A stretch of 23,962 bases of DNA from a virus. Shown in pieces: positions 3 to 16,961 of the stretch. How positions within the stretch are numbered: the stretch's first letter is position 1; every line of letters begins with the position of its first letter. The position numbers and the translations under genes are program-made. Where the stretch lies: positions 1-23,962 of the IMG/VR virus record IMGVR_UViG_3300031785_000055; one strand, 5' to 3'. Below the pieces are notes generated by a model, which saw nothing but the letters and a program-made list of their open reading frames with translations, searched no databases and was not told where the DNA came from.

Positions 3-176
3 GACCTGCGGTTCCACGATCTTCGGCATGAGGCCCTGTCCCGGCTGGGTGAAGACGGCTATACGGTGCCCCAGATCCAACAGGTGAGCCTGCATGAGAG
101 CTGGGACAGCCTGCGGCGGTACGTGAACATGCCTGCCCGGCGCGGTGAGCGGGTGGAGTTCAATCCTCGGGCCTGA
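3..176 (+). CDS. Tyrosine recombinase/integrase, C-terminal fragment (cut by window edge)
   Basis: The visible 57 residues are the end of a tyrosine recombinase catalytic domain, the enzyme that integrates or excises a prophage by site-specific strand exchange. An HDLRHEALSRL segment at residues 5-15 carries the box II His-x-x-Arg pair (H5, R8). A His at 31 sits where the third catalytic His/Trp is expected, and RRYVNM at 38-43 supplies the nucleophilic tyrosine (Y40). The gene ends at a TGA at 174-176; its start lies before the window. It is transcribed rightward, opposite to the large operon that starts at 1290. It is probably the integrase of this prophage, but an integrase of a neighbouring element cannot be excluded because no att site is visible. 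Confidence 0.85.
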   Translation, partial: DLRFHDLRHEALSRLGEDGYTVPQIQQVSLHESWDSLRRYVNMPARRGERVEFNPRA

Positions 177-1559: not shown

Positions 1560-3137
1560 CTAGGCCGCAGCAGCGGCGGCGACGTTGGGTTGGTAGTTAA
1601 GGGAGACCAGCGCTTCGCACGGGAACGGCGAGACGCTGTTGCCGCACATCAGGTTCTGCTCTGCCTTGGTGAGGCGCCGTCCGTCCCAAGTACGGTCGAT
1701 GATGTAGTCCGGCCCGAAGCCCTGGGCGGGGAACAGTTCGTGGGGTTGGAGCATCCGCATGCCGATGTCCACGATCTGATAGGGCTGGCCCTTCACCAGA
1801 ACCAAGCCCATTCGGGCCTTCGTGGGGATGGTGTGCACGGGCTCGCGCAGGTCCGACCATTGCCCGCCTTCCCGGTAATACTTCATCAGGAACGCGCGGC
1901 ACTCGGCGTGGTGCCAGCCCCCGGCGCTGATCGTGTGCAGCGGCCCAGCTGGGTGGCTGCCAATGTTGTCGCCGCGTAGCTTGACCATATGGCTGGTGAC
2001 CAGGGAGTGGTGGTCCCGGGCGGTGATCGTGCCGATCGGCCGTTTCAACTCCGAGCCGGTGACGCCTGTGTAGTGTTTGGCGAGGAACGCCTGGACCAGC
2101 TGGCCATGGTTGCCGGTGGGCACGATAGCGGGGAGTGGCGCCCGCGCGGATCTGGTGCGCGGCCGCTGGCCCTGGGCTTCACCGTAGCGGGGCACCAGGT
2201 AGGGCACGGCCAGGCAGGCGTCGCCCTTCGAGGTGATGGTGGCCAGCGGCTCGTGCAAGCCGCGGGGGCGGGACTGGCCGGCGCGGCCGCCGCACCCGAC
2301 TATGGCGCCCGGGGGTGCGATGAACGGTTCCGGGTGCTCGAAGACGAACCGGCGCAGGCCCTCGGCGATCCGGCGCTGTGTCGCCTCGGCCAGGGGTCGG
2401 CGGACGCCGGCGGCTTTGCCCTGTTCCTTGGTCAGGAATATCGAGGGGCAGGGCAGCGACCAGTCGATGATGTCCGCCGCGCAGCGGTAGGGTTTGAGTC
2501 CGGGTCCATGCGTGGGCTCCGGCCAGAGCACTGGCAGCCCATCGCAGCGTGCTACCAGGAATAGCCGCTTGCGGATCGTCGGGGCGCCGTAGTCGTGCGC
2601 CCGCAGCTCTTTCCAGTCCACGGTGTAGCCGTGCCGGCGCAGGGCGTTGACGAAGGATTTGAAGGTGTGGCCTTTCCGTTTCGGGCAGGGCTTCCAACCA
2701 CCCTTGCCATCACGCACCACCGGCCCCCAGCTGACAAACTCTTCGACGTTCTCGAGCATGATTACCCGAGGCCGAACCGTTCCCACCCAGCGCATCACTA
2801 CCCAGGCGAGGCCGCGCACCCGGGGGCTCACCGGCTTCCCGCCCCGGGCCTTGCTGTGGTGGGTGCAGTCGGGGCTGAACCAGGCCAGCCCCACCGGCTG
2901 GCCCTTGCAGACCTTGCGCGGATCCACGTCCCACACCGACTCGCAGTAGTGACGGGTGTGCGGGTGGTTGGTTTCGTGCATCGCCAGGGCGATGGGGTTG
3001 TGGTTGATGGCAATGTCTACGGGTCGGCCTATGGCCCGCTCGATGCCGGTGGAGGCGCCGCCACCGCCAGCGAAGTTGTCCACCACCAGCTCACCGAAGT
3101 TGAGGCTCGCCTGCAGGTTGCCGCGGAAGGTGCCCAT
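1560..3137 (-). CDS. DNA (cytosine-5) methyltransferase
   Basis: A 525-residue C5-cytosine DNA methyltransferase, transferring methyl groups from S-adenosylmethionine to cytosine. The cofactor loop (motif I) is VVDNFAGGGGAST at 18-30. The catalytic cysteine is C91 in SPDCTHHS, the variant form of the Pro-Cys motif seen in a phage subfamily. ENV at 129-131 is motif VI, TIRKRLF is the motif VIII equivalent, and CGNSVSPFP near the C-terminus is motif X. It is longer than a minimal enzyme because of the target-recognition region between motifs VIII and IX. No cognate restriction enzyme is adjacent, so it is probably an orphan phage enzyme protecting DNA from host restriction. The start ATG shares one base with the upstream stop (TAATG), indicating translational coupling. 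Confidence 0.93.
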   Translation of the reverse strand: MGTFRGNLQASLNFGELVVDNFAGGGGASTGIERAIGRPVDIAINHNPIALAMHETNHPHTRHYCESVWDVDPRKVCKGQPVGLAWFSPDCTHHSKARGGKPVSPRVRGLAWVVMRWVGTVRPRVIMLENVEEFVSWGPVVRDGKGGWKPCPKRKGHTFKSFVNALRRHGYTVDWKELRAHDYGAPTIRKRLFLVARCDGLPVLWPEPTHGPGLKPYRCAADIIDWSLPCPSIFLTKEQGKAAGVRRPLAEATQRRIAEGLRRFVFEHPEPFIAPPGAIVGCGGRAGQSRPRGLHEPLATITSKGDACLAVPYLVPRYGEAQGQRPRTRSARAPLPAIVPTGNHGQLVQAFLAKHYTGVTGSELKRPIGTITARDHHSLVTSHMVKLRGDNIGSHPAGPLHTISAGGWHHAECRAFLMKYYREGGQWSDLREPVHTIPTKARMGLVLVKGQPYQIVDIGMRMLQPHELFPAQGFGPDYIIDRTWDGRRLTKAEQNLMCGNSVSPFPCEALVSLNYQPNVAAAAAA

Positions 3138-3641: not shown

Positions 3642-4585
3642 ATCGCACCCCCGTCCGAGTAGCTGCCAGTCAATGGTTTGGCGTGGCCAGGGCAATCGGG
3701 GCTTTCGTTTTTAATGTCCTGGACGTGCTGCGGAGCGCCCCTGAACGTGTACCGGTCCAGCGATGCGAGAAACCGCAGCAGCATGGCGGCGGCTTGAAGG
3801 GCCTCTTTTTCGACGGCGCCCTCCGGGTTCTTCTCAGGCTCGTACACCGCCTGAAGCACGGCTTTGCTGAGTTCGCCCACCTCTTCGTTCACCACGCCCA
3901 TGGCGTGGAGTGGGTCGGTGGGCCAAGTCGGGAATTTACGGCAGGCCCTGTGGAGCTCATGAAGCACCACGTGCATCCGGGGCGGCAGGGCGGCTGCGGC
4001 CATATGATCATTCCACCCTCGGTCGTACTGACTGAGCGTGTCTTGCCTGCCAGCCCGGTCGAGGACGGCGCGGGCCGCCGCCAGGGCGAGATAGCCCTCC
4101 GGTGTGTTCGGATCCGCTTCCAGGGCGTTGGCGAGGGCTTCGCGGAGATCCGCAATGGTGGCGGCCTGCCGGCGCACCCAGAAAGCCGTCGGGCCGTCCT
4201 CGGTGTCGATCAGCTGCAGCAGGAACCACCCGGTGCCGGCGGGCTTGGAAGCTGCCCAATCGGCGGCTACCCCGCCATCTTCGTCACCGACTTCCTGCGG
4301 GGCGCAATCCAGCAGTTGTTCGTTAAGCCAGCGTTGGAACGGCGCTGGGTCTTCATCGAAGTGGTCTGGAATGGCAGGGTGCGCCCAGAAGCCATCATCG
4401 TCTGGTAGCACCGGCGCGGCAGTGATCAGGTGGATGCCGTGAGTCAGTCCGTCGGCTAAGGCTCTGGCTTCGGCCTCCTGCATTTCAGCGGCGTCAGCGT
4501 CCTCGTGGCCCGAGGGAGGGCGCTCATCACGCAGGTAGTCGGCGTATTGGTGGAGCATCTGCGCCGCGCGCTCGTTGACGTTCAT
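3638..4585 (-). CDS. MazG-like nucleotide pyrophosphohydrolase domain protein
   Basis: A 315-residue protein with a MazG-like domain in its C-terminal third. The metal-binding EExxE motif is EEVGE at 234-238, with a second acidic/helical block EALQAAAMLLRFLASL at 261-276. MazG-family enzymes hydrolyse (d)NTPs to monophosphates, and phage versions are thought to clear modified nucleotides or alter (p)ppGpp signalling. The N-terminal part (about 1-200) has no domain I can name; FWAHPAIP near 67 and PFQRWLNEQ near 82 recur in phage MazG-associated proteins as far as I recall. The start at 4585 overlaps the upstream methyltransferase stop as ATGA. It lies in a nucleotide and DNA-modification group with two methyltransferases and a dNMP kinase in the same operon. 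Confidence 0.72.
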   Translation of the reverse strand: MNVNERAAQMLHQYADYLRDERPPSGHEDADAAEMQEAEARALADGLTHGIHLITAAPVLPDDDGFWAHPAIPDHFDEDPAPFQRWLNEQLLDCAPQEVGDEDGGVAADWAASKPAGTGWFLLQLIDTEDGPTAFWVRRQAATIADLREALANALEADPNTPEGYLALAAARAVLDRAGRQDTLSQYDRGWNDHMAAAALPPRMHVVLHELHRACRKFPTWPTDPLHAMGVVNEEVGELSKAVLQAVYEPEKNPEGAVEKEALQAAAMLLRFLASLDRYTFRGAPQHVQDIKNESPDCPGHAKPLTGSYSDGGAI

Positions 4586-5403
4586 GCGGTGTCTCCCATT
4601 GCTAGTGCGTACTCGCCCGGCGCGATGCGGTGGTAGTGCTTGCCAGCAATCTGCCGGACTTTTTCGCGCCAAAATCGATTGGTGGTAGGGCGTCCGCCGC
4701 TCTCAAAGCAGGCGTACAGTTCGGAAAGGGTGGCTCGCCCGCCGCAGGCTTCGAGGGCTACGCGCACAGCGTCGCGCCAGCATTGGGCGGTGCTCAGGTT
4801 GCCGATCAGGTAGGCGCGCAGTCGGGGGTGCACGCCGGCGAGAAGGGCGTCCGTCTCGGTGTAGAGGAAGAAGCCGTGGAGCGTGCGCCGCTGTTCCTTG
4901 GTGAACAGCGCGAACAGCAGCGGCTTCGTGAGGCCCTGAAACAGATTGCGGGGCAGCAGCTCCTGGCGGATTGACCAGCGGTGGTGGTACCGGATGACCG
5001 TGGCGGCCGTCTGAAACAGGTAGACGGGCAGCAGCAGGCCGACCCGATCGCCGTCGCCCAGCTCGAAGTGACAGCGATCCAGGAGCGCCTGCACCAGCTC
5101 GGCCTGGAACGGCGGGTTACCCACTACCGCGGTGGGCCGGGTGGGCAGTTCAACGCTGAGGCAATCGCCGGTGATCACGGGACGGCCGGTGTTCGCCCTG
5201 GCGGCGGTGGCCTGGGCGGGATCGATCTCACTGCCAAAGGCGGGAACCTCCGGCGGGACGGCCAGCAGGAAACGGCCGTCGCCGCAGGTGGGTTCCCAGA
5301 CCGCGTCGCTCTGATCAAGGTCCGGGAAATGCCGTTGAAGCAGCAGCTCGGCGGCCCATGTCGGCGTGAAATGTTGGTCGAGGCCTGGCGCTGGAGTGCT
5401 CAT
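4582..5403 (-). CDS. N6-adenine-type DNA methyltransferase
   Basis: A 273-residue class I amino-methyltransferase. EPTCGDGRFL at 37-46 is the S-adenosylmethionine-binding motif I and NPPF at 96-99 is the catalytic motif IV typical of N6-adenine (or N4-cytosine) DNA methyltransferases. The N-terminus (LDQHFTPTWAAELLL) resembles the HFTP start of phage adenine methyltransferases. The C-terminal 80 residues (ATLSELYACFESGGRPTTN, then FWREKVRQIAGKHYHRI) look like a winged-helix target-recognition part. No restriction endonuclease is nearby, so an orphan modification role in anti-restriction or gene regulation is likely. It is joined by ATGA overlaps to the genes on both sides. Confidence 0.88.
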   Translation of the reverse strand: MSTPAPGLDQHFTPTWAAELLLQRHFPDLDQSDAVWEPTCGDGRFLLAVPPEVPAFGSEIDPAQATAARANTGRPVITGDCLSVELPTRPTAVVGNPPFQAELVQALLDRCHFELGDGDRVGLLLPVYLFQTAATVIRYHHRWSIRQELLPRNLFQGLTKPLLFALFTKEQRRTLHGFFLYTETDALLAGVHPRLRAYLIGNLSTAQCWRDAVRVALEACGGRATLSELYACFESGGRPTTNRFWREKVRQIAGKHYHRIAPGEYALAMGDTA

Positions 5404-5657
5404 CGCAGCGCCACCACCTGAAAGCCGGCGGCAGTGATCGTGTGGTCGAACTCCGCGAGCAGCTCATCAATGGCGTCGGTGGCCAGGGGCAGCACGTCGA
5501 CCAGGTAGCACTGGCCATCGGGGCGCAATTCGTGGGTCACACGGTCATCGCCGTTCTGGGCGTACAGCTTGATCTGCCAGCGGCGCGGGCCGAGACCGGC
5601 GGCGCGGTCGCTAATGCGCGGGTTCTTGTCGTGCACGGAGTAAGTGGCGACGATCAT
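5400..5657 (-). CDS. Hypothetical protein in DGR/methyltransferase operon
   Basis: An 85-residue protein beginning MIVATYSVHDKNPRIS. The start at 5657 forms an ATGA overlap with the upstream gene, and its end overlaps the adenine methyltransferase start in the same way. It contains an alternating hydrophobic WQIKLYAQNGDD stretch and a C-terminal amphipathic helix (DAIDELLAEFDHTITAAG). No family recognised. Confidence 0.6.
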   Translation of the reverse strand: MIVATYSVHDKNPRISDRAAGLGPRRWQIKLYAQNGDDRVTHELRPDGQCYLVDVLPLATDAIDELLAEFDHTITAAGFQVVALR

Positions 5658-5857
5658 GCGGCACGCTCCAGGCGGACTCGCTGCGGGGCGTTCTTGATGC
5701 GGCACAGGTGGGCGCCGTTCTGCGGGCGAACGCCGCCCAGGGCCCAGCCGATGTCCGGGTCGCAGGGCTCGCCGTGGCTGGCGCCGCAGGCGGCGCAGGT
5801 GCCCCAGGTGGCCTGTTCGTCCCAGGTGAGTTCCTTGATCGGTGCGTCGTTGCTCAT
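5654..5857 (-). CDS. Small cysteine-rich protein, putative zinc-binding
   Basis: A 67-residue protein starting MSNDAPIKELTWDE. CAACGASHGEPC (a Cys-x-x-Cys followed by another Cys) and a later HLCRIK place one His and four Cys as possible zinc ligands, a short treble-clef-like pattern common in phage small proteins. The start at 5857 overlaps the stop of the reverse transcriptase as ATGA, so its translation is probably coupled to the RT. It is immediately downstream of the RT, but I know of no DGR accessory protein with this pattern. Confidence 0.65.
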   Translation of the reverse strand: MSNDAPIKELTWDEQATWGTCAACGASHGEPCDPDIGWALGGVRPQNGAHLCRIKNAPQRVRLERAA

Positions 5858-7026
5858 GATCGGCCTCCGTACGTTTTGGTGAGGTCGCCGCTGACGGCAC
5901 GGCCCCGGCGGAATACGGCGCGGGTGAGGCGCATGCGGTCGCGTTCGCTGTGGCTGGCCTGGCGCAGCAGGCCGAAATAGCTGTTGGCGGTCTCGCGGAG
6001 CTGCCCCGCGGGGACCGTCGCGATGCGGTGTTCGGCGTGGCGCACCGTCTTGCGTCGGGTGGTGCGGTGCCAGGGCTTGATGACCTGGCCGACGAAATCG
6101 ATACCGCGGTCCACCGGCTGGATGATGGTTTTGCGTGGGTTGAGCTGGGCGGCCAGTGTCGCCGGCAGGAACGCCTCGATCTGGCGGTGGGCGTTGGTGA
6201 GCCACGCGGGGTCTCGGTGCAGCAGCACGAAGTCGTCGACGTAGCGCACGTAGTTGCGCGCTCTGAGCCGGTGTTTGACGAACTGGTCCAGGGCGTCGAG
6301 GTAGACGTTGGCGAAAAATTGGCTGCTCAGGTTGCCGATGGGCAGGCCCAGGTGGGCGGGCTGCTCGCCCAGCCGCTTGTGGGCCGGCACCCGCTCGAGC
6401 AGTTCCCGACGGCCACGCACTTCGTGGTGCTCGCGCGGGTCGTGGAACAGCACCAGGGTGGCCAGCTCGCGCCACCAGGGTTCAGGTATCTGCGCGATGA
6501 GCTGCTGGTGGAGAATGCGCTTGTCGATGCTGACGAAGAAGTTCGCCAGGTCGCACTTGAGGTAGAAGGCGCGGTGCTGCCAGTTTTCGGTGACGCGGCG
6601 CACTTTCCGTTCCAGCCGCTGGGCGGCGTAAAGCGTGCCCCGGCCGGGAATGCAGGCGCAGCTGTCGGCGATGAACCGGCGGTGGAAGCGGTCGGCGATC
6701 CGGTTGTAGAGCAGGTGGTGGACAATCCGGTCGCGGAATTCGGCGGCCCATACCTCGCGAGGTTTGGGGTGGGTCACCACGAAACAAATAGAGGGCCCGG
6801 GCCGGTAGCTGCCGTCGCGCAGCTCGGCGTCGAGTGCCACCAGGTTGCGCTCCAGGTTGATCTCGAAGTCGAGCGCGGAGCAGCTAGTGCGCTTTGCTCG
6901 GCGGCAGTCGAAGTAAGCTTGGGCCAGTTCTTCAAAAGAAAAGTCAGCATGGCCTTGCGGGTATGGATCTGCGGACGGCGCGAGCCCGAAGGGCGTTGTC
7001 CTTGTGGTCGTTGTTCTGGTTGCCAT
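5854..7026 (-). CDS. Diversity-generating retroelement reverse transcriptase
   Basis: Reverse transcriptase that copies the template-repeat RNA into adenine-mutagenised cDNA with Avd. In the 390-residue form, the palm begins with KCDLANFFVSIDK (157-169, catalytic D159), the DGR-type IGNLSSQ motif lies at 230-236 in place of the QGxxxSP of other RTs, and the active site YVDD is at 262-265. The remaining palm/thumb motifs follow (LNPRKT 295-300, IDFVGQVI 309-316). The domain really starts near HADFSFEEL (residue 26), but no ATG, GTG or TTG occurs in frame between there and the template repeat. The start at 7026 therefore lies inside the template repeat, with AGGA eight bases upstream. The same frame stays open to an ATG at 7242 that overlaps the avd stop as ATGA (462 residues). 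The enzyme is clear; the start is not. Confidence 0.93.
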   Translation of the reverse strand: MATRTTTTRTTPFGLAPSADPYPQGHADFSFEELAQAYFDCRRAKRTSCSALDFEINLERNLVALDAELRDGSYRPGPSICFVVTHPKPREVWAAEFRDRIVHHLLYNRIADRFHRRFIADSCACIPGRGTLYAAQRLERKVRRVTENWQHRAFYLKCDLANFFVSIDKRILHQQLIAQIPEPWWRELATLVLFHDPREHHEVRGRRELLERVPAHKRLGEQPAHLGLPIGNLSSQFFANVYLDALDQFVKHRLRARNYVRYVDDFVLLHRDPAWLTNAHRQIEAFLPATLAAQLNPRKTIIQPVDRGIDFVGQVIKPWHRTTRRKTVRHAEHRIATVPAGQLRETANSYFGLLRQASHSERDRMRLTRAVFRRGRAVSGDLTKTYGGRS

Positions 7027-7068
7027 TGGCAAAGTCCTGATTCCAGGCGTTGTTGGCGGAGTACTGCG
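6967..7068 (-). repeat. DGR template repeat (TR)
   Basis: A 102-bp segment between avd and the RT domain, nearly repeated at the 3' ends of two target genes. Read in the target frame on the minus strand it is Asn-rich (SANNAWNQDFANGNQNN and on), the AAC/AAT-rich signature of a DGR template. In its variable part (6996-7068) there are 26 adenines on the minus strand; 12 differ in VR1 and 15 in VR2, while no non-adenine in that part differs. The GC-rich 29 bp at the 3' end (6967-6995) equals VR1 exactly and VR2 with one change, fitting an IMH-type anchor. Homology stops beyond 7068. Confidence 0.95.
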
Positions 7069-7238
7069 CCGTATCGTGCTATCTACGTCGCCCCACCGAA
7101 GGCCGTGGCCGATCAGCGGGGAAACTGCGCGGGACCTGCCGGGCGCTGCCCGGTGGTTTCCCTGGTGCGCGTGGCGGTGGCCGGTGGCCAGCGGCACGAC
7201 CAGATTCAAAAATCGCACGGGTATGGCCGCCATGACGG

Positions 7239-7595
7239 TCATACAGCAGGCGACGCCTTTGAGTGGCGTTTCCAGCCCGTGGCTTGCCGACCGATCTGGT
7301 CGGTGATCTCCACCGCGCGGGCGTACTGCCCGGTGCTGATGAAGCGCTTGTCACGGCAGAGGCGGAGCAATAACTCCACCACCTGCAGGCGCTCCAGAAG
7401 ATCCTCGATGTGGGGCGTTTTGTTGCGGGCGGTGTTGGCCCTGAAGATCAGGACCAGCATCTCCACGCACTCCTCGCGCACCTTTTCACCTAGCAGCCGC
7501 TTGAAGTCCCGCGGGATGTTCCGCGTGACTTCAACTGCGACCGAGAGCAGGTCGTAGGAAAGCCGGTAAATCGGGAGCTGGTGATGCAATGCCAT
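7239..7595 (-). CDS. avd: DGR accessory variability determinant (Avd)
   Basis: A 118-residue protein of the Avd family (four-helix bundle related to the 23S rRNA intervening-sequence protein family). The family opening PIYRLSYDLLSVAVEVTRNIP (split: PIYRLSYDLL then SVAVEVTRNIP), then FKRLLGEKVREECVEML and VLIFRANTARNK, are characteristic. Avd forms a pentamer that binds the RT and template RNA and is required for mutagenic cDNA synthesis in the Bordetella phage BPP-1 system. Its place between the targets and the template repeat is the standard DGR order. The upstream sequence has no good Shine-Dalgarno, so it may be translated by coupling or at low level. The stop overlaps an ATG at 7242 (ATGA) that opens the longest RT reading frame. 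Confidence 0.9.
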   Translation of the reverse strand: MALHHQLPIYRLSYDLLSVAVEVTRNIPRDFKRLLGEKVREECVEMLVLIFRANTARNKTPHIEDLLERLQVVELLLRLCRDKRFISTGQYARAVEITDQIGRQATGWKRHSKASPAV

Positions 7596-7614
7596 GCTGA
7601 AAAAACTCGCGAAA

Positions 7615-7631
7615 AGGGCGCTTCGCGCCCT
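7615..7631 (-). repeat. GC-rich hairpin downstream of VR1
   Basis: Inverted repeat AGGGCGC/GCGCCCT (7-bp stem, 3-base loop) 28 bases past the 3' end of VR1. An almost identical hairpin sits at the same distance after VR2. In BPP-1, a hairpin/cruciform just after the variable repeat stimulates retrohoming; this is the likely equivalent. Confidence 0.8.
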
Positions 7632-7636
7632 AAGGG

Positions 7637-8272
7637 TTAAAGGGCTGAATGGCTAATGAATCTGCGGACGGCGCGAGCCCGAAGGGCGTAGCCCTTGTGG
7701 CCGAAGTCCTGGCCGCCATAGGCAAAGTCCTGACGCCAGGCGTTGTAGGCGGAGTACTGCGAGCTGGACCAGTAGTAGCCCGACTTCTCGAACAGCTCGG
7801 GCACCGTTGCGTAGCACAGGGCCAGCTCACGGCGCGCCGGCAGGTACCAGTCGCGGTGGCCGTAGAGTTCAAGATTGGAAGCCCAGCGGGCAGCGGGGTG
7901 ATCATTGTCAGAGGCGATCAACGCGCGGGTATTGGCGAGACCGTCGCGCTCACTCGTTGCGGCGGTCTCTTCTTTTCCCGCGCTACCCCATTTGATCTCT
8001 TTAATTTCGGCCTGCTCGACAACAGCGTGCGGGTCGACACTGGGAACGATCAGGTGGTAATCCGGCTGGCCGTTCTCGCCGCGCATCATGCCGGCGTAGA
8101 CGCCGCCCTGGCTGGGCCAAGCCTCGCCGATCGATGGCGGCACGTCGGTGGGGCGGGGCTCATTGGCGGGCAGGGACGCCAGCCAGTTGTCGATCACCGT
8201 CTGCCGGGGCAGGCGCACGGTGGCGCCGTGAATCTGAATGTCGATCAGCTCGTTGCTCTGATTCGGGTTCAT
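7637..8272 (-). CDS. DGR target protein 1, DUF1566/Lcl-like variable protein
   Basis: A 211-residue protein whose C-terminus is the hypervariable end of a C-type-lectin-fold domain. The DUF1566 (Lcl C-terminal) signature is present: GHRDWYLPARRELALCY (split as GHRDWYLPARR, ELALCY) and GYYWSSSQYSAYNAW. VR1 covers about residues 171-205 and ends in ALRARAVRRF, the conserved strand after the variable loop. An upstream part (GGVYAGMMRGENG, YHLIVPS) resembles the corresponding part of the second target, so the two are paralogues. There is no signal peptide, membrane segment or tail-fibre module, so the display location is unknown. GGGAG lies eight bases before the ATG. Like other DGR targets it would bind a varying ligand; the ligand is unknown. 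Confidence 0.9.
   Translation of the reverse strand: MNPNQSNELIDIQIHGATVRLPRQTVIDNWLASLPANEPRPTDVPPSIGEAWPSQGGVYAGMMRGENGQPDYHLIVPSVDPHAVVEQAEIKEIKWGSAGKEETAATSERDGLANTRALIASDNDHPAARWASNLELYGHRDWYLPARRELALCYATVPELFEKSGYYWSSSQYSAYNAWRQDFAYGGQDFGHKGYALRARAVRRFISHSAL
7660..7761 (-). repeat. DGR variable repeat 1 (VR1)
   Basis: Aligns without gaps to the template at 6967-7068. All 12 differences are at template adenines; they recode Asn/Asp codons to Tyr, Arg, Gly, Asp, Phe and others, nine residues in all. The 29-bp GC-rich 3' end is identical to the template. Confidence 0.95.
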
Positions 8273-8298
8273 GCTCTATCTCCCAAAAATGGCGCGCG

Positions 8299-8317
8299 AA
8301 GGGCGCTGCGCGCCCTT
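8299..8317 (-). repeat. GC-rich hairpin downstream of VR2
   Basis: Inverted repeat AAGGGCGC/GCGCCCTT (8-bp stem, 3-base loop) beginning 28 bases past the 3' end of VR2, matching the spacing and sequence of the hairpin after VR1. No comparable hairpin follows the template repeat, as expected for a retrohoming target mark. Confidence 0.8.
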
Positions 8318-8331
8318 AATGGATGAATGGA

Positions 8332-8940
8332 TTAATTGATGAGGAATCTGCGGACGGCGCGAGCCCGACGGGCGCCGCCCTTGTGGACGCAGTACTGGAG
8401 GCCACTGGCAAAGACCTGAAGCCAGGCGTTGTAGGCGGAGAACTGCGAGCTCGACCAGTAGAAGCGCGGCTGGAACGCTTCCGGGCCGTCCGCCTGAAAC
8501 TCCGCGTCGGTGGTCTGGACGGGCAGGGCGGCGGTGTACGGGTAGCCCGCCGGGACGCTGCTGGGGTTGTCCCCGTCGCGGAAGGTGGCGGCGTTGTCGC
8601 GGTCCTGCGGCTTGAACTGGCGATAGAGCATTTCCTGTTCGTCACGGGCCGGCAGGTACCAGTCGTCGAAGCCGTTGATCTCCAGCTTCTGAATGGCCTG
8701 GGCCAGTTCACTGCCGGCTTCGGCCATGGCCACGGTGTTGGCCATGCCGTCGCAGCAGCTGGTGGCCCCGATGTCCTGGCCGAACTCGCCCCACGGCAGC
8801 GGGTCCAGGTCGCCGGCTTTCGGTGATAGCACCAGGCCGTAGTGGGTGCCGGCGACGTTGATCACGCCAGCGAAGTAACCGCCCTCCATGGCGGCGCCGA
8901 TTACGAGTGCGGTGGTGGTCTTTGCGAGTGCTTCACTCAT
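8332..8940 (-). CDS. DGR target protein 2, DUF1566/Lcl-like variable protein
   Basis: A 202-residue paralogue of the first target. The N-terminal GGYFAGVINVAGTHYGLVL and a LSPKAGD turn are typical of phage DUF1566 proteins; the core holds GFDDWYLPARDEQEMLYRQF and FYWSSSQFSAYNAW. VR2 covers about residues 165-199, ending RRARAVRRFLIN. It has diverged further from the template than the first target, with aliphatic, Tyr and Cys residues at variable sites, plus one change (Leu to Arg) not explained by adenine mutagenesis. GGGGAG lies six bases before the ATG at 8940. No secretion signal or membrane segment is seen. It is the first gene of the DGR cassette and follows a tiny membrane protein by 27 bases. 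Confidence 0.9.
   Translation of the reverse strand: MSEALAKTTTALVIGAAMEGGYFAGVINVAGTHYGLVLSPKAGDLDPLPWGEFGQDIGATSCCDGMANTVAMAEAGSELAQAIQKLEINGFDDWYLPARDEQEMLYRQFKPQDRDNAATFRDGDNPSSVPAGYPYTAALPVQTTDAEFQADGPEAFQPRFYWSSSQFSAYNAWLQVFASGLQYCVHKGGARRARAVRRFLIN
8346..8447 (-). repeat. DGR variable repeat 2 (VR2)
   Basis: Ungapped alignment with the template at 6967-7068 gives 15 differences at template adenines and one at another base (position 8369, in the GC-rich anchor; CTT becomes CGT). VR1 and VR2 also differ from each other, showing independent mutagenesis events. Confidence 0.95.
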
Positions 8941-8967
8941 GGGTTTCTCCCCTTGCTTGCTTGTGGT

Positions 8968-9108
8968 TTAGAAAAGGGCGATGGCCACCAGGGCCACCGC
9001 GGTGACGGTGAGCGCCGTCGGTAAAAATCGGAGCCGGTTGCGGCCGGCCAGGGCCCGCTCGCTGGGGAGCGGGATCTGAATCGTTGTGGCGTTGTATTGG
9101 CTTCGCAT
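8968..9108 (-). CDS. Very small single-pass membrane protein
   Basis: A 46-residue protein starting MRSQYNATTIQ. Residues 28-46 (FLPTALTVTAVALVAIALF) form one hydrophobic segment at the extreme C-terminus, preceded by basic residues, so it is probably a tail-anchored inner-membrane peptide. GGAGG lies four bases before the ATG. It is between the antirepressor-like gene and the first DGR target. Function unknown. Confidence 0.6.
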   Translation of the reverse strand: MRSQYNATTIQIPLPSERALAGRNRLRFLPTALTVTAVALVAIALF

Positions 9109-9116
9109 GGGGCCTC

Positions 9117-9407
9117 CTACGCTGCGCTGTGCTTGAGCTGATGGCGCAGGTGGTCCAGGCCGGCGGTGGTGATCTCCACGCGGACGTACCATTGCGGGCC
9201 AACATGCGGATGGGTGAACTGCTCTTCGCGCTCCACCAGCCAACCGGCACGGATCCAGGCCGGGTTCGCCCGGGTGCGGCCGGTGACGCCGTCGCGTTGA
9301 AATGCGCCGGCGGCTTCCAGGTGCCGGCGCAGCGTTCGGTCGCCCACCTGGAGCTCGCGGGCGGCGTGACGGATGCGGTAGGTGCTGTCGTTGGCGGAGC
9401 GGTGCAT
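9117..9407 (-). CDS. KilAC-like phage antirepressor domain protein
   Basis: A 96-residue protein that looks like a stand-alone KilAC (phage antirepressor C-terminal) domain: an N-terminal helical AARELQVGDRTLRRHLEAAG segment, then GWLVEREEQF and a C-terminal beta-hairpin and helix (WYVRVEITTAGLDHLRHQL). KilAC domains are the C-terminal half of many phage antirepressors that relieve CI-type repression or bind DNA. The usual N-terminal Bro or AntA module is absent. The start at 9407 has GGAG nine bases upstream. An antirepressor here would fit a repressor that seems unable to cleave itself. Confidence 0.65.
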   Translation of the reverse strand: MHRSANDSTYRIRHAARELQVGDRTLRRHLEAAGAFQRDGVTGRTRANPAWIRAGWLVEREEQFTHPHVGPQWYVRVEITTAGLDHLRHQLKHSAA

Positions 9408-9417
9408 GGCAGTTCTC

Positions 9418-9960
9418 CTATGCGTTGAACGGCTCGCGGCCGATGTCGCGGCCCAGCTTGGCGTCGTGCCACCAGGCGTATTCCTCGGGGCCGTAGGGCA
9501 CCGGTTTGTATTCCTGATAGCGGTCCCCCTGGTAGAAGCCCCAGGGGTGGGCCCAGGCGCCGTGCCAGAACAGCGTCCAGGTCTCCGGCTGGATCGTGGT
9601 GATCCGGTGCAGGTCGATCTCGCGGTGGCTGCGCGCCAGGGTGTTAAACCAGCGGACCCGCCGTTCACCGAGGTTGATCACGGCATGGCCGAGCGATTGG
9701 TGCAGGGGGTACGCGATGCCGCGTTCCTCGGTGTAGCGGCCGGTCAGCACCAGGCTGTGTGCGGTATCCCACGGGTGGTCATGCAGGTGGCGTTCTGCGT
9801 CGTTGCGCAGGAAGCGGTGCAAGTACCAGAACCGGTTGTGTTTCTCGCCCAGCCAGTAGCGTTCCAGGTAGGGCTTGCCCTCCGGCTGGATCAGGCGGCA
9901 CGGCCGGTTCGCCGTGTAGTTGAACAGGGCTTTCGCTGGCAGTCGGGTGAGGGCGTTCAT
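9418..9960 (-). CDS. Cupin-like hypothetical phage protein
   Basis: A 180-residue protein with a cupin-like metal-site pattern: LHRFLRNDAERHLHDHPWD near residues 47-65 supplies several His residues, and a later LHRITTIQPETWTLFWHG block around 117-134 supplies a second His-containing strand. The sequence is beta-rich with many aromatic residues. Family members with the HDHPW motif are common phage and bacterial proteins of unknown activity; metal binding is inference from the motif. The start overlaps the dNMP kinase stop as ATGA, so the two are translationally coupled. Confidence 0.65.
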   Translation of the reverse strand: MNALTRLPAKALFNYTANRPCRLIQPEGKPYLERYWLGEKHNRFWYLHRFLRNDAERHLHDHPWDTAHSLVLTGRYTEERGIAYPLHQSLGHAVINLGERRVRWFNTLARSHREIDLHRITTIQPETWTLFWHGAWAHPWGFYQGDRYQEYKPVPYGPEEYAWWHDAKLGRDIGREPFNA

Positions 9961-10550
9961 GCCGCCACTCCCTGACCGAGCCAGCAGCGCACCATAGCCC
10001 GCACCTGCACTTCCAGGTCATCGACGGTGCCCGCGTTGAGGGCGTACAGGTCGCCCTGGTGGAAGGTGAGCGGCTGTTCGGTGCTGTGGTCCGGGGCCTC
10101 GCCCTTGCCCATGCTCGCGTCGCCCCGGCTGACGTGGATCACCAGGCCGCCGTGGCGGCGTACCCAGTTGGTCTCGGGCTCTGTGCGTATGTCGGTGATC
10201 GCCAAGATTTCCGGCGTGTCCTGAAAGTTTTCCAGCTGGGCGAGACGCGCCTCCAGGCGCTTGAGCAGGTAGTCCTGGCCGAAGGTCTGCCGCACCCAGT
10301 CGCCGAACAGCTGCAGCGAACGCCGTGGCGTGAGGTTGCCCAGGCTGGTGCTGGGTGTGCGCTTGAACGTCCGGTCCTCGCAGAGATCGGCGAGGGTCAC
10401 GGCGGTGGTGTCCATGCCGATCAAGCCAGACAGACCGTCGTATAGGGGGGCGGCGATGGCCTCGGCCTTGGTCTGCCAGTCGGTGGCCAGCGCCAGGGCG
10501 GCGGTGTTTTTGCCGACGCCGGCGGGGCCGGCGAATCCGATTATTTTCAT
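9957..10550 (-). CDS. Deoxynucleoside monophosphate kinase-like P-loop protein
   Basis: A 197-residue P-loop kinase. The Walker A loop is GPAGVGKNT immediately after the first beta strand (MKIIGFA), the layout of phage deoxynucleoside monophosphate kinases. LQLFGDWVRQTFGQDYLLKRL is the conserved substrate-region helix and ITDIRTEPETNWVRRHGGLVIHV contains the Walker-B-like strand. It would phosphorylate dNMPs to dNDPs to feed phage DNA synthesis. The start at 10550 is chosen over upstream codons because it overlaps the previous stop as ATGA and places the P-loop at the normal distance. Other nucleotide genes in the operon (MazG-like, two methyltransferases) agree with a nucleotide/DNA-modification role. 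Confidence 0.82.
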   Translation of the reverse strand: MKIIGFAGPAGVGKNTAALALATDWQTKAEAIAAPLYDGLSGLIGMDTTAVTLADLCEDRTFKRTPSTSLGNLTPRRSLQLFGDWVRQTFGQDYLLKRLEARLAQLENFQDTPEILAITDIRTEPETNWVRRHGGLVIHVSRGDASMGKGEAPDHSTEQPLTFHQGDLYALNAGTVDDLEVQVRAMVRCWLGQGVAA

Positions 10551-11703: not shown

Positions 11704-12354
11704 TTAAAGTGCGATCTCTGCGTGGTGGATCACGCCAAGAATGTCGAGTTGTCCATCAACAGGGATAACTGGATAGGTGGGGTTAAGTGCCTTTAGGTAG
11801 GTCTGCCCGGCGTCCTCAACGATCATGCGGATGGTGGGGTTTCCGTTCACAGAGGCGGCGACGATTTCCCCGGTTCTCGCCTGTGCGCAGGGCTCGATTA
11901 AGGCCCAGGCGCCTGGCGTCAAGCTCGGTGCGCCGGCGGGGTTGATCATGGTGTCACCGGTAATCCGGACCCAAACGGCACCTAATGGAGCGCTTGCCGG
12001 CAGGGGGCGCATTGGACGGCCATCGTCGGTGATGTAGGCGCTATCAGCCTGTAAACGAAGGGGTAGGTCTTCCAGCGCCAGGACTGGTGCCGACCTTGCA
12101 TGGGAATAAGTTGCCTGCTCTTCGCGAACTCCGGGTGCGGTGTGCGGGTCGCCGATCCCAAGGACCAGCCAAGCCTTATTGCACCCAAGTGCTTCGGCGA
12201 TGATCTCCCAATCCCGCTCGCGGGGGGCGCGATCGCCACGTTCGTAGCCGCTGATGCGGCTTTGAGAATCCCAGCCGCAGCGCTGGGCCAGCTCGGCTTG
12301 GGACCAGCCAAGGTCGCGTCGTAGTTGGGAAATTCGGTGACCGATATCGCTCAT
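11704..12354 (-). CDS. CI-like repressor, HTH plus S24-like domain with substituted catalytic residues
   Basis: A 216-residue lysogeny repressor: an N-terminal XRE-type helix-turn-helix (about 6-45; WSQAELAQRCGW then SQSRISGYERG) and a C-terminal LexA/S24-like domain (about 90-216). In autocleaving members, Ser in G-D-S-M and a Lys about 40 residues later form the active site. Here they are T135 (ITGDTMINP) and R176 (NPTIRMIV), and the linker (SAPVLALEDLPLRL) has no Ala-Gly or Cys-Gly cleavage pair. The fold-specific YLKALNPTYP block is intact, so dimerisation is probably kept. No Shine-Dalgarno precedes the ATG; TCAAAT (minus strand of 12362-12367) seven bases before it suggests a leaderless mRNA as for lambda PRM. 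Confidence 0.9.
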   Translation of the reverse strand: MSDIGHRISQLRRDLGWSQAELAQRCGWDSQSRISGYERGDRAPRERDWEIIAEALGCNKAWLVLGIGDPHTAPGVREEQATYSHARSAPVLALEDLPLRLQADSAYITDDGRPMRPLPASAPLGAVWVRITGDTMINPAGAPSLTPGAWALIEPCAQARTGEIVAASVNGNPTIRMIVEDAGQTYLKALNPTYPVIPVDGQLDILGVIHHAEIAL

Positions 12355-16886: not shown

Positions 16887-16961
16887 CGCAGCGTAGAGCA
16901 GAGGTAGCTCGCGGGGCTCATATTCCCGAGGTCGCAGGTTCGAACCCTGCCGCTGCCACCA
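16887..16961 (+). tRNA. tRNA-Met (CAT anticodon), initiator-like features
   Basis: A full cloverleaf of 75 bases with encoded CCA. Acceptor GCAGCG/CGCTGC (2-7 with 66-71); D stem GAGC/GCTC; anticodon stem CGGGG/TCCCG with loop CTCATAT (anticodon CAT); T stem GCAGG/CCTGC with loop TTCGAAC. The first acceptor pair is a C-C mismatch, and the D stem carries A11-T24; both are marks of bacterial initiator tRNA (fMet). The third anticodon-stem pair next to the loop is G-T instead of G-C, so the initiator signature is incomplete. Confidence 0.88.

Follow-up and report, generated by a model that had tools for sequence, protein, structure and literature searches.

The 23,962-base IMG/VR record IMGVR_UViG_3300031785_000055 (hereafter the window, meaning the whole stretch of DNA analysed) carries a complete diversity-generating retroelement (DGR) with two target genes, located on the strand of the CI-like repressor gene of a temperate phage. 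We assign a probability of about 0.6 to the following overall picture: an active DGR of a type marked by the structured RNA RT-15, whose targets are most likely cytoplasmic proteins of the lysogen or of early infection that bind a fast-evolving partner, and are not tail adhesins.

All parts of the element lie on the minus strand in the order target 1, target 2, avd, template repeat (TR) and reverse transcriptase (RT), as the initial annotation had described. The two targets, VP1 (8332-8940, 202 aa; Pfam Lcl_C, 6e-9; PHROG 4245, 1e-29) and VP2 (7637-8272, 211 aa; Lcl_C, 1e-9), belong to the Lcl_C/DUF1566 family and both exceed the Pfam Lcl_C cut-off. They are followed by avd (7239-7595, 118 aa; Pfam bAvd, 8e-15; PHROG 3206 "Avd protein of DGR", 7.5e-33), by the TR (6967-7068), and by an RT gene whose coding frame the TR overlaps at its start (5854-7026, 390 aa from an ATG inside the TR; RVT_1, 1.9e-13). 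The IGNLSSQ and YVDD motifs reported earlier for the RT are both present, the protein matches the reverse transcriptase PHROG 1423 at 3e-115, and it is 66% identical to the RTs of phage DGRs with TR and variable repeat (VR) pairs. Each target ends in a VR, VR1 (8346-8447) being 84% and VR2 (7660-7761) 88% identical to the TR. The features that define membership among DGRs, namely an A-specific TR/VR pair, a DGR-type RT (IGxxxSQ, YxDD), an Avd protein and a VR that ends a lectin-fold target gene and precedes a DNA hairpin missing at the TR, are thus all found, and the RT and avd open reading frames (ORFs), the RT motifs, the TR and the VR hairpins are all intact.

Both VRs match the TR without gaps, and their mismatches fall almost exclusively at TR adenines (15 of 16 in VR1, binomial P = 5e-8; 12 of 12 in VR2, P = 2e-7). 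The same pattern was found in the relatives, where 204 distinct TR/VR pairs gave 2518 mismatches at A and 67 elsewhere. The scan used to find these pairs, which recovered the annotated TR and VR of BPP-1, tolerates A mismatches by design. When C, G or T was made the tolerated base instead, nearly the same repeats were obtained and the mismatches still avoided the tolerated base; the A bias is therefore genuine and not an artefact of the scan. Each VR is also followed by a GC-rich DNA hairpin with a G-N-A triloop, on the minus strand as well: AAGGGCGC-GCA-GCGCCCTT after VR1 (8299-8317, perfect stem of 8 bp) and AGGGCGC-GAA-GCGCCCT after VR2 (7615-7631, perfect stem of 7 bp). No such hairpin follows the TR of the window. 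Stems of at least 7 bp follow 40 of 176 VRs, as against a single one of 88 TRs and a single one of 176 shuffled flanks. In BPP-1, homing requires a hairpin after the VR, with a GRNA tetraloop (PMC3240598).

The variation between close relatives is concentrated where a working DGR would place it. Loci L046 and L070 differ at 32 of 66 A-sites of their VRs (48%), versus 4 of 3470 positions (0.1%) in the remaining cassette and none of 109 in the TR, and L076 and L078 differ at 14 of 52 VR A-sites versus 7 of 3535 positions elsewhere in the cassette; fixed VRs, which had been proposed as evidence against diversification, are not what these near-identical relatives contain. Between the window and L005 the TR is identical (0 of 102), VR A-sites differ at 26 of 56 (46%) and the remaining cassette is 15% different. 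Similarly, the differences between the first targets of Cruim01 and Aurca01, two soil phages that share a host strain, lie mainly within the VR. The changes are not uniform along the repeat: most TR adenines are changed in about 30-75% of VRs, those in conserved Gln and Lys codons almost never, and one CAG adenine in only 1 of 185 VRs, which shows that the scaffold is under selection alongside diversification. That A-mutagenised cDNA retrohomes into the two lectin-fold genes comes close to being demonstrated, and the DGR of the window is evidently active.

The initial annotation identified these parts correctly and overlooked a structured RNA between avd and the TR. The window matches RT-15 (Rfam RF03018) at 7067-7255 on the minus strand, over the full length of the model (1-192 of 192) and with 186.9 bits against a gathering cut-off of 82. 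This span of about 190 nt runs from the final codons of avd to the opening bases of the TR, as a 5' leader of the template RNA would. RT-15 scored above the cut-off in all 48 relatives' records and in 14 of the 18 host genomes that carry a related RT (62 of 66 overall), the four host genomes without it having more distant RTs (45-48% identical). All 14 control genomes lacked it, and among 369 genomes sampled across the class the seed genome alone had it. An alignment of 60 members has 47 consensus pairs, 30 of them with compensatory change. In all 48 relatives' records examined RT-15 ends at the TR, and it still adjoins the TR in four relatives where another gene separates TR and RT (L045, ~9050-9990; L118, ~4990-6040; L122, ~8870-9940; and L120). 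Judging from their translations, the intervening genes are probably methyltransferase-like or PAPS-reductase-like, that is, of a DNA-modification or nucleotide type. Because four relatives have a gene in this place, the overlap of TR and RT is not essential, and because RT-15 stays on the TR when they do, we infer a single template RNA made up of RT-15 and TR. No description of RT-15 as a DGR RNA was found in the literature searched.

The start of the RT gene is variable in this group. In the window the RT frame is open to 7242, its sole in-frame ATG near the conserved RT core is that at 7026, inside the TR, and no start codon lies between the TR and the core. Stop codons force the start into the TR in other loci (L034, L039 and L053, for example). 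A strict rule that the RT starts inside the TR was nevertheless rejected, as the start is necessarily upstream in L009, L027 and L050, a few relatives start after the TR, and some have the intervening gene.

Other candidate RNA elements were examined and discarded. The Rfam Phage_DGR model, which is found in BPP-1, has no match in the window, and a 3' spacer hidden inside the RT gene was rejected since the extra synonymous conservation after the TR stops at about ten codons. RNAalifold proposed a nearly invariant helix between UCUGGU of the leader and ACCAGA of the TR; six diverged loci (L090, L091, L117, L119, L122 and L126) break this pairing without compensation, and the ACCAGA overlaps the conserved Gln codon, which makes the helix doubtful on another ground. 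Nor does pairing protect TR adenines: the neighbours of the nearly constant CAG adenine in the predicted helix are changed in 48-73% of VRs, so that its conservation is explained by selection on Gln.

The predicted structure of VP2 (pLDDT 90.7) best matches the C-terminal domain of Legionella Lcl (PDB 8q4e; Z 12.8, 27% identity across 122 residues) and a Bacteroides fimbrial protein (Z 12.4), and a C-type lectin fold is expected for VP1 from VP2. Legionella Lcl is a surface adhesin. The initial annotation had suggested the cell surface as one place of action for the targets; neither window protein shows a signal peptide, a lipobox or a membrane segment, and export to the surface was rejected on this account. 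Relatives have 1-4 targets per locus, usually 2. The upstream target forms its own clade in 35 of 58 two-target loci and in just 1 of 58 is the target beside avd most closely related to its own partner; the paralogue pair is therefore old, and recent tandem duplication was rejected.

The element belongs to a clade of DGRs in temperate phages of gamma- and betaproteobacteria, of which we found over 100 loci. In its annotated members (LPPA56, Cruim01, Magia, vB_Sb_QDWS, phPA-G and Haboob) the DGR lies on the strand of cI and integrase, away from the structural genes, which, where annotated, are on the opposite strand; this early strand also carries integrase, recombination and DNA-methyltransferase genes. 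Tallies of neighbouring genes at about 50 loci, in which ORF calling followed a simple rule and the counts are therefore rough, gave matches to integrase, DNA methyltransferase and ParB-like families after the RT, and before the targets mostly unnamed families, followed by RecE-like exonucleases, SSB and repressors. A single structural family appeared before the targets, a weak one in 4 ORFs. Targets that are several kb distant are close to repressor genes (one repressor PHROG accounted for 11 matches in the 57 upstream ORFs). In Burkholderia phage Magia, for example, the gene just downstream of the immunity repressor is a third VR-bearing target (L088: 5761-6141), at a distance of 7 kb from the RT. 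Plasmid relatives amounted to three weak matches, and no description of this early-region group was found in the literature searched.

Stand-alone homologues of the targets also persist in the early regions of phages without a DGR RT, namely Aurca01, Medea1, PAN70 and D3. Aurca01 (L084) keeps both targets and has no avd-TR-RT, and the near-identical Cruim01 (L087) comes from the same soil and host strain; Aurca01 would have lost or never gained the avd-TR-RT unit, the two phages making a natural before-and-after pair. In Pseudomonas phage D3 the gene that follows cI, orf68 (NC_002484.2 44080-44640; L145: 16081-16641), encodes an Lcl/DUF1566 protein. Its VR-like 3' end bears a 2-nt deletion causing a frameshift, resembles the TR of the Detrevirus relative phPA-G and that of Haboob, and differs from them mostly at TR adenines, so that orf68 is apparently a relic DGR target.

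The window itself has the same layout. Genes matching replication, endolysin, terminase, portal, protease and capsid families (Pfam and PHROG) are on the plus strand. The CI-like repressor gene on the minus strand (11704-12354; Peptidase_S24, 1.3e-15, with HTH_3) is followed downstream on this strand by genes among which are one for a deoxynucleotide kinase and one resembling KilAC/ANT (9117-9407; Pfam ANT, 1.1e-8), then by the DGR, by a DNA-methyltransferase-like gene (4582-5403; PHROG 5172, 5e-28; PHROG 799 DNA methyltransferase, 1.8e-8) and a C-5 cytosine DNA methyltransferase gene (1560-3137; DNA_methylase, 5.6e-20; PHROG 116), and finally by an excisionase gene at the terminus of the leftward run (1290-1550; PHROG 1300, 2.1e-26). 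The placement between antirepressor-like and DNA-modification genes proposed in the initial annotation is therefore correct, and the small stand-alone targets away from tail genes, seen in the window, are kept in the annotated relatives. Its further statement, an early operon under CI-like control, holds for the early location between cI and integrase, which is conserved in the annotated relatives; control by CI is read from gene position only. No sigma-70-like promoter was found between the CI-like repressor gene and the DGR. As cI lies upstream on the same strand, the DGR may equally well be expressed in the lysogen by read-through from cI or be an early unit that CI represses.

Some further features of the region may be recorded. 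A match to a cysteine dioxygenase PHROG family (9418-9960, minus strand; 6.7e-27) lies upstream of the antirepressor-like gene, and this family also occurs upstream of the targets in 2 sampled ORFs of relatives. A tRNA-family match (16887-16958, plus strand) is located between the replication and lysis genes. The C-terminal end of a tyrosine integrase (3-176, plus strand) reads rightward, opposite to the strand of the excisionase and DGR, and may be the phage's own or part of a flank.

We propose that one transcript would comprise avd, the structured RT-15 leader, the TR and the RT. The RT, with Avd, would copy TR RNA into cDNA, misincorporating at adenines, and the cDNA would take the place of the homologous 3'-terminal ~100 nt in both target genes, each VR being marked as a target by the downstream DNA hairpin that the TR lacks. 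The ligand-binding face of two paralogous C-type-lectin-fold proteins would thereby be rewritten while the scaffold Gln, Lys and Gly residues are kept. The leader most likely equals the 3' spacer of BPP-1 in role, folding and recruiting RT-Avd or setting the 5' end of the cDNA. The location between cI and integrase, the absence of export signals and the survival of targets in phages without RT suggest that the targets are most likely cytoplasmic and belong to the lysogen or early infection. As products of the gene run on the cI side they would be binding proteins whose partner is a competing phage, or a defence or regulatory protein of the host. The role of RT-15, the time of expression, the place of action and the ligand are the parts of this scheme that we infer. 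One might speculate more specifically that lysogens make a self-diversifying, cytoplasmic pair of lectin-fold proteins against rival phages or host defences, by a DGR with a 5' leader in place of a 3' spacer; in this full form the proposal is tentative and rather doubtful. For superinfection exclusion or another anti-phage function, as the initial annotation had suggested among its examples, the relevant observation is gene position close to cI in relatives and in D3.

Several points weigh against cytoplasmic targets served by a 5'-structured template. A probable full-length relative of the targets lies in the tail module of Halomonas phage QHHSV-1, and related Lcl-type domains are present in phage tail fibres; the position of a gene does not fix its time of action; RT-15 always adjoins avd as well as the TR, so that its role might be regulation of avd or RT and not a part in the template; and the priming of cDNA without a 3' spacer is a weak point. 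The tail-module relative and the tail-fibre domains, together with a survey of more than 30,000 DGRs in which viral targets are mostly tail proteins (PMC8144416), speak for the main rival to the cytoplasmic reading, in which the targets are virion adhesins, decorating the tail tip or fibres, that are made from the early operon and switch host tropism as in BPP-1. We consider this unlikely, since in the annotated relatives the targets are encoded on the strand of cI, distant from the structural genes, which run the other way, structural genes are almost missing from the neighbour tallies, and the small targets have no visible tail-attachment domain. Still less probable is action on the surface of the lysogen, by adhesion or receptor masking: the nearest structures are indeed surface adhesins, but the window targets lack any visible export signal, and the hydrophobic N-terminal stretches found in 16 of 185 related targets resemble strands of the domain.

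For the RNA step, the alternative is that RT-15 is a cis-regulatory RNA for the expression of avd or RT, outside the template RNA. That it starts in the last avd codons and overlaps a possible upstream RT frame in the window would fit such a role, which nevertheless seems less probable than a template leader: RT-15 is kept on the TR despite a different gene between TR and RT, its end lies exactly at the TR in every member, and DGR RTs need a structured RNA joined to the TR (PMC12875486). Finally, the cassette could be decaying or inactive in the window phage and the VR differences old, as the targets without RT in Aurca01 and Medea1 and the frameshifted VR relic of D3 might suggest. The intact ORFs and motifs of the window, and a TR identical to that of L005 amid 15% difference elsewhere and 46% at VR A-sites, make this very improbable.

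Viral DGRs are mostly tied to tail adhesins, and a widespread clade with small, non-tail lectin-fold targets points to hypervariable recognition inside the infected cell. RT-15, so far an orphan RNA of Rfam, gains a probable job, and DGR template RNAs can apparently have their structured part 5' or 3' of the TR. The system is carried by cultured phages (LPPA56, Haboob, Magia, Cruim01 and vB_Sb_QDWS). Multi-target DUF1566 DGRs and non-structural viral targets were already known; what appears to be new, as far as the literature searched tells, is the placement in the lysogeny region as a trait of a clade and the use of RT-15 as a 5' template leader.

Two other phages bear on the architecture of templates. 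In Vibrio phage VP58.5 a weak match to Rfam RT-14 (L142: 1364-1483) starts at the 3' end of the TR (1250-1365), which makes RT-14 a candidate for the 3' spacer RNA in this group of DGRs. In Bacteroides phage F2 (L141) a gap of 129 nt separates avd from the TR (1348-1455) that follows it, and the annotated RT begins ~34 nt further on. The template may thus be 5'-structured in this phage as well; Rfam gave no match.

Among known systems, the DGR of BPP-1 (mtd, avd, TR, brt) shares with the window the order target-avd-TR-RT on one strand, A-specific mutagenesis, a C-terminal VR, a hairpin after the VR, a lectin-fold target and Avd, the two RTs being 32% identical. BPP-1 has one tail target, whereas the window has two non-tail targets in the cI region, and the VR hairpin has a GNA triloop in the window versus a GRNA tetraloop in BPP-1. 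In BPP-1 avd is followed directly by the TR, then by a structured spacer of 144 nt (Rfam Phage_DGR) that is described as recruiting bRT-Avd and priming cDNA synthesis (PMC12875486), then by brt; in the window 171 nt of RT-15 separate avd from the TR, and the TR overlaps the RT. The structured RNA is thus 3' of the TR in one and 5' in the other, and the window has neither the spacer RNA between TR and RT nor the target adjoining tail genes that mark the BPP-1 type. The DUF1566/Lcl multi-target DGRs of bacterial genome surveys share the target domain and the several targets per TR; DUF1566 is the commonest named target domain there and several targets per TR are common (PMC6642488), and the text of that survey makes no mention of prophage, nor did we see in it a tie to the lysogeny region or to RT-15. 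The global survey, for its part, mentions viral targets of both structural and non-structural kinds (PMC8144416). The Lcl C-terminal domain of Legionella pneumophila (PDB 8q4e) has the same fold as VP2, whereas the window targets are small and stand-alone, with no export signal. The Rfam entry for RT-15 (RF03018) describes it simply as an sRNA, whereas our comparisons tie it to the TR of one DGR clade. Closest of all are the DGRs of Pseudomonas phages LPPA56, Haboob, phPA-G and Cruim01, Burkholderia phage Magia and Shewanella phage vB_Sb_QDWS, whose records report no functional data. Members of the same clade, with RTs 63-67% identical, they share the gene order, RT-15 and early-strand placement and differ in the number, length and distance of their targets, and the annotators of Magia had already marked its lectin-fold proteins as "possible DGR targets".

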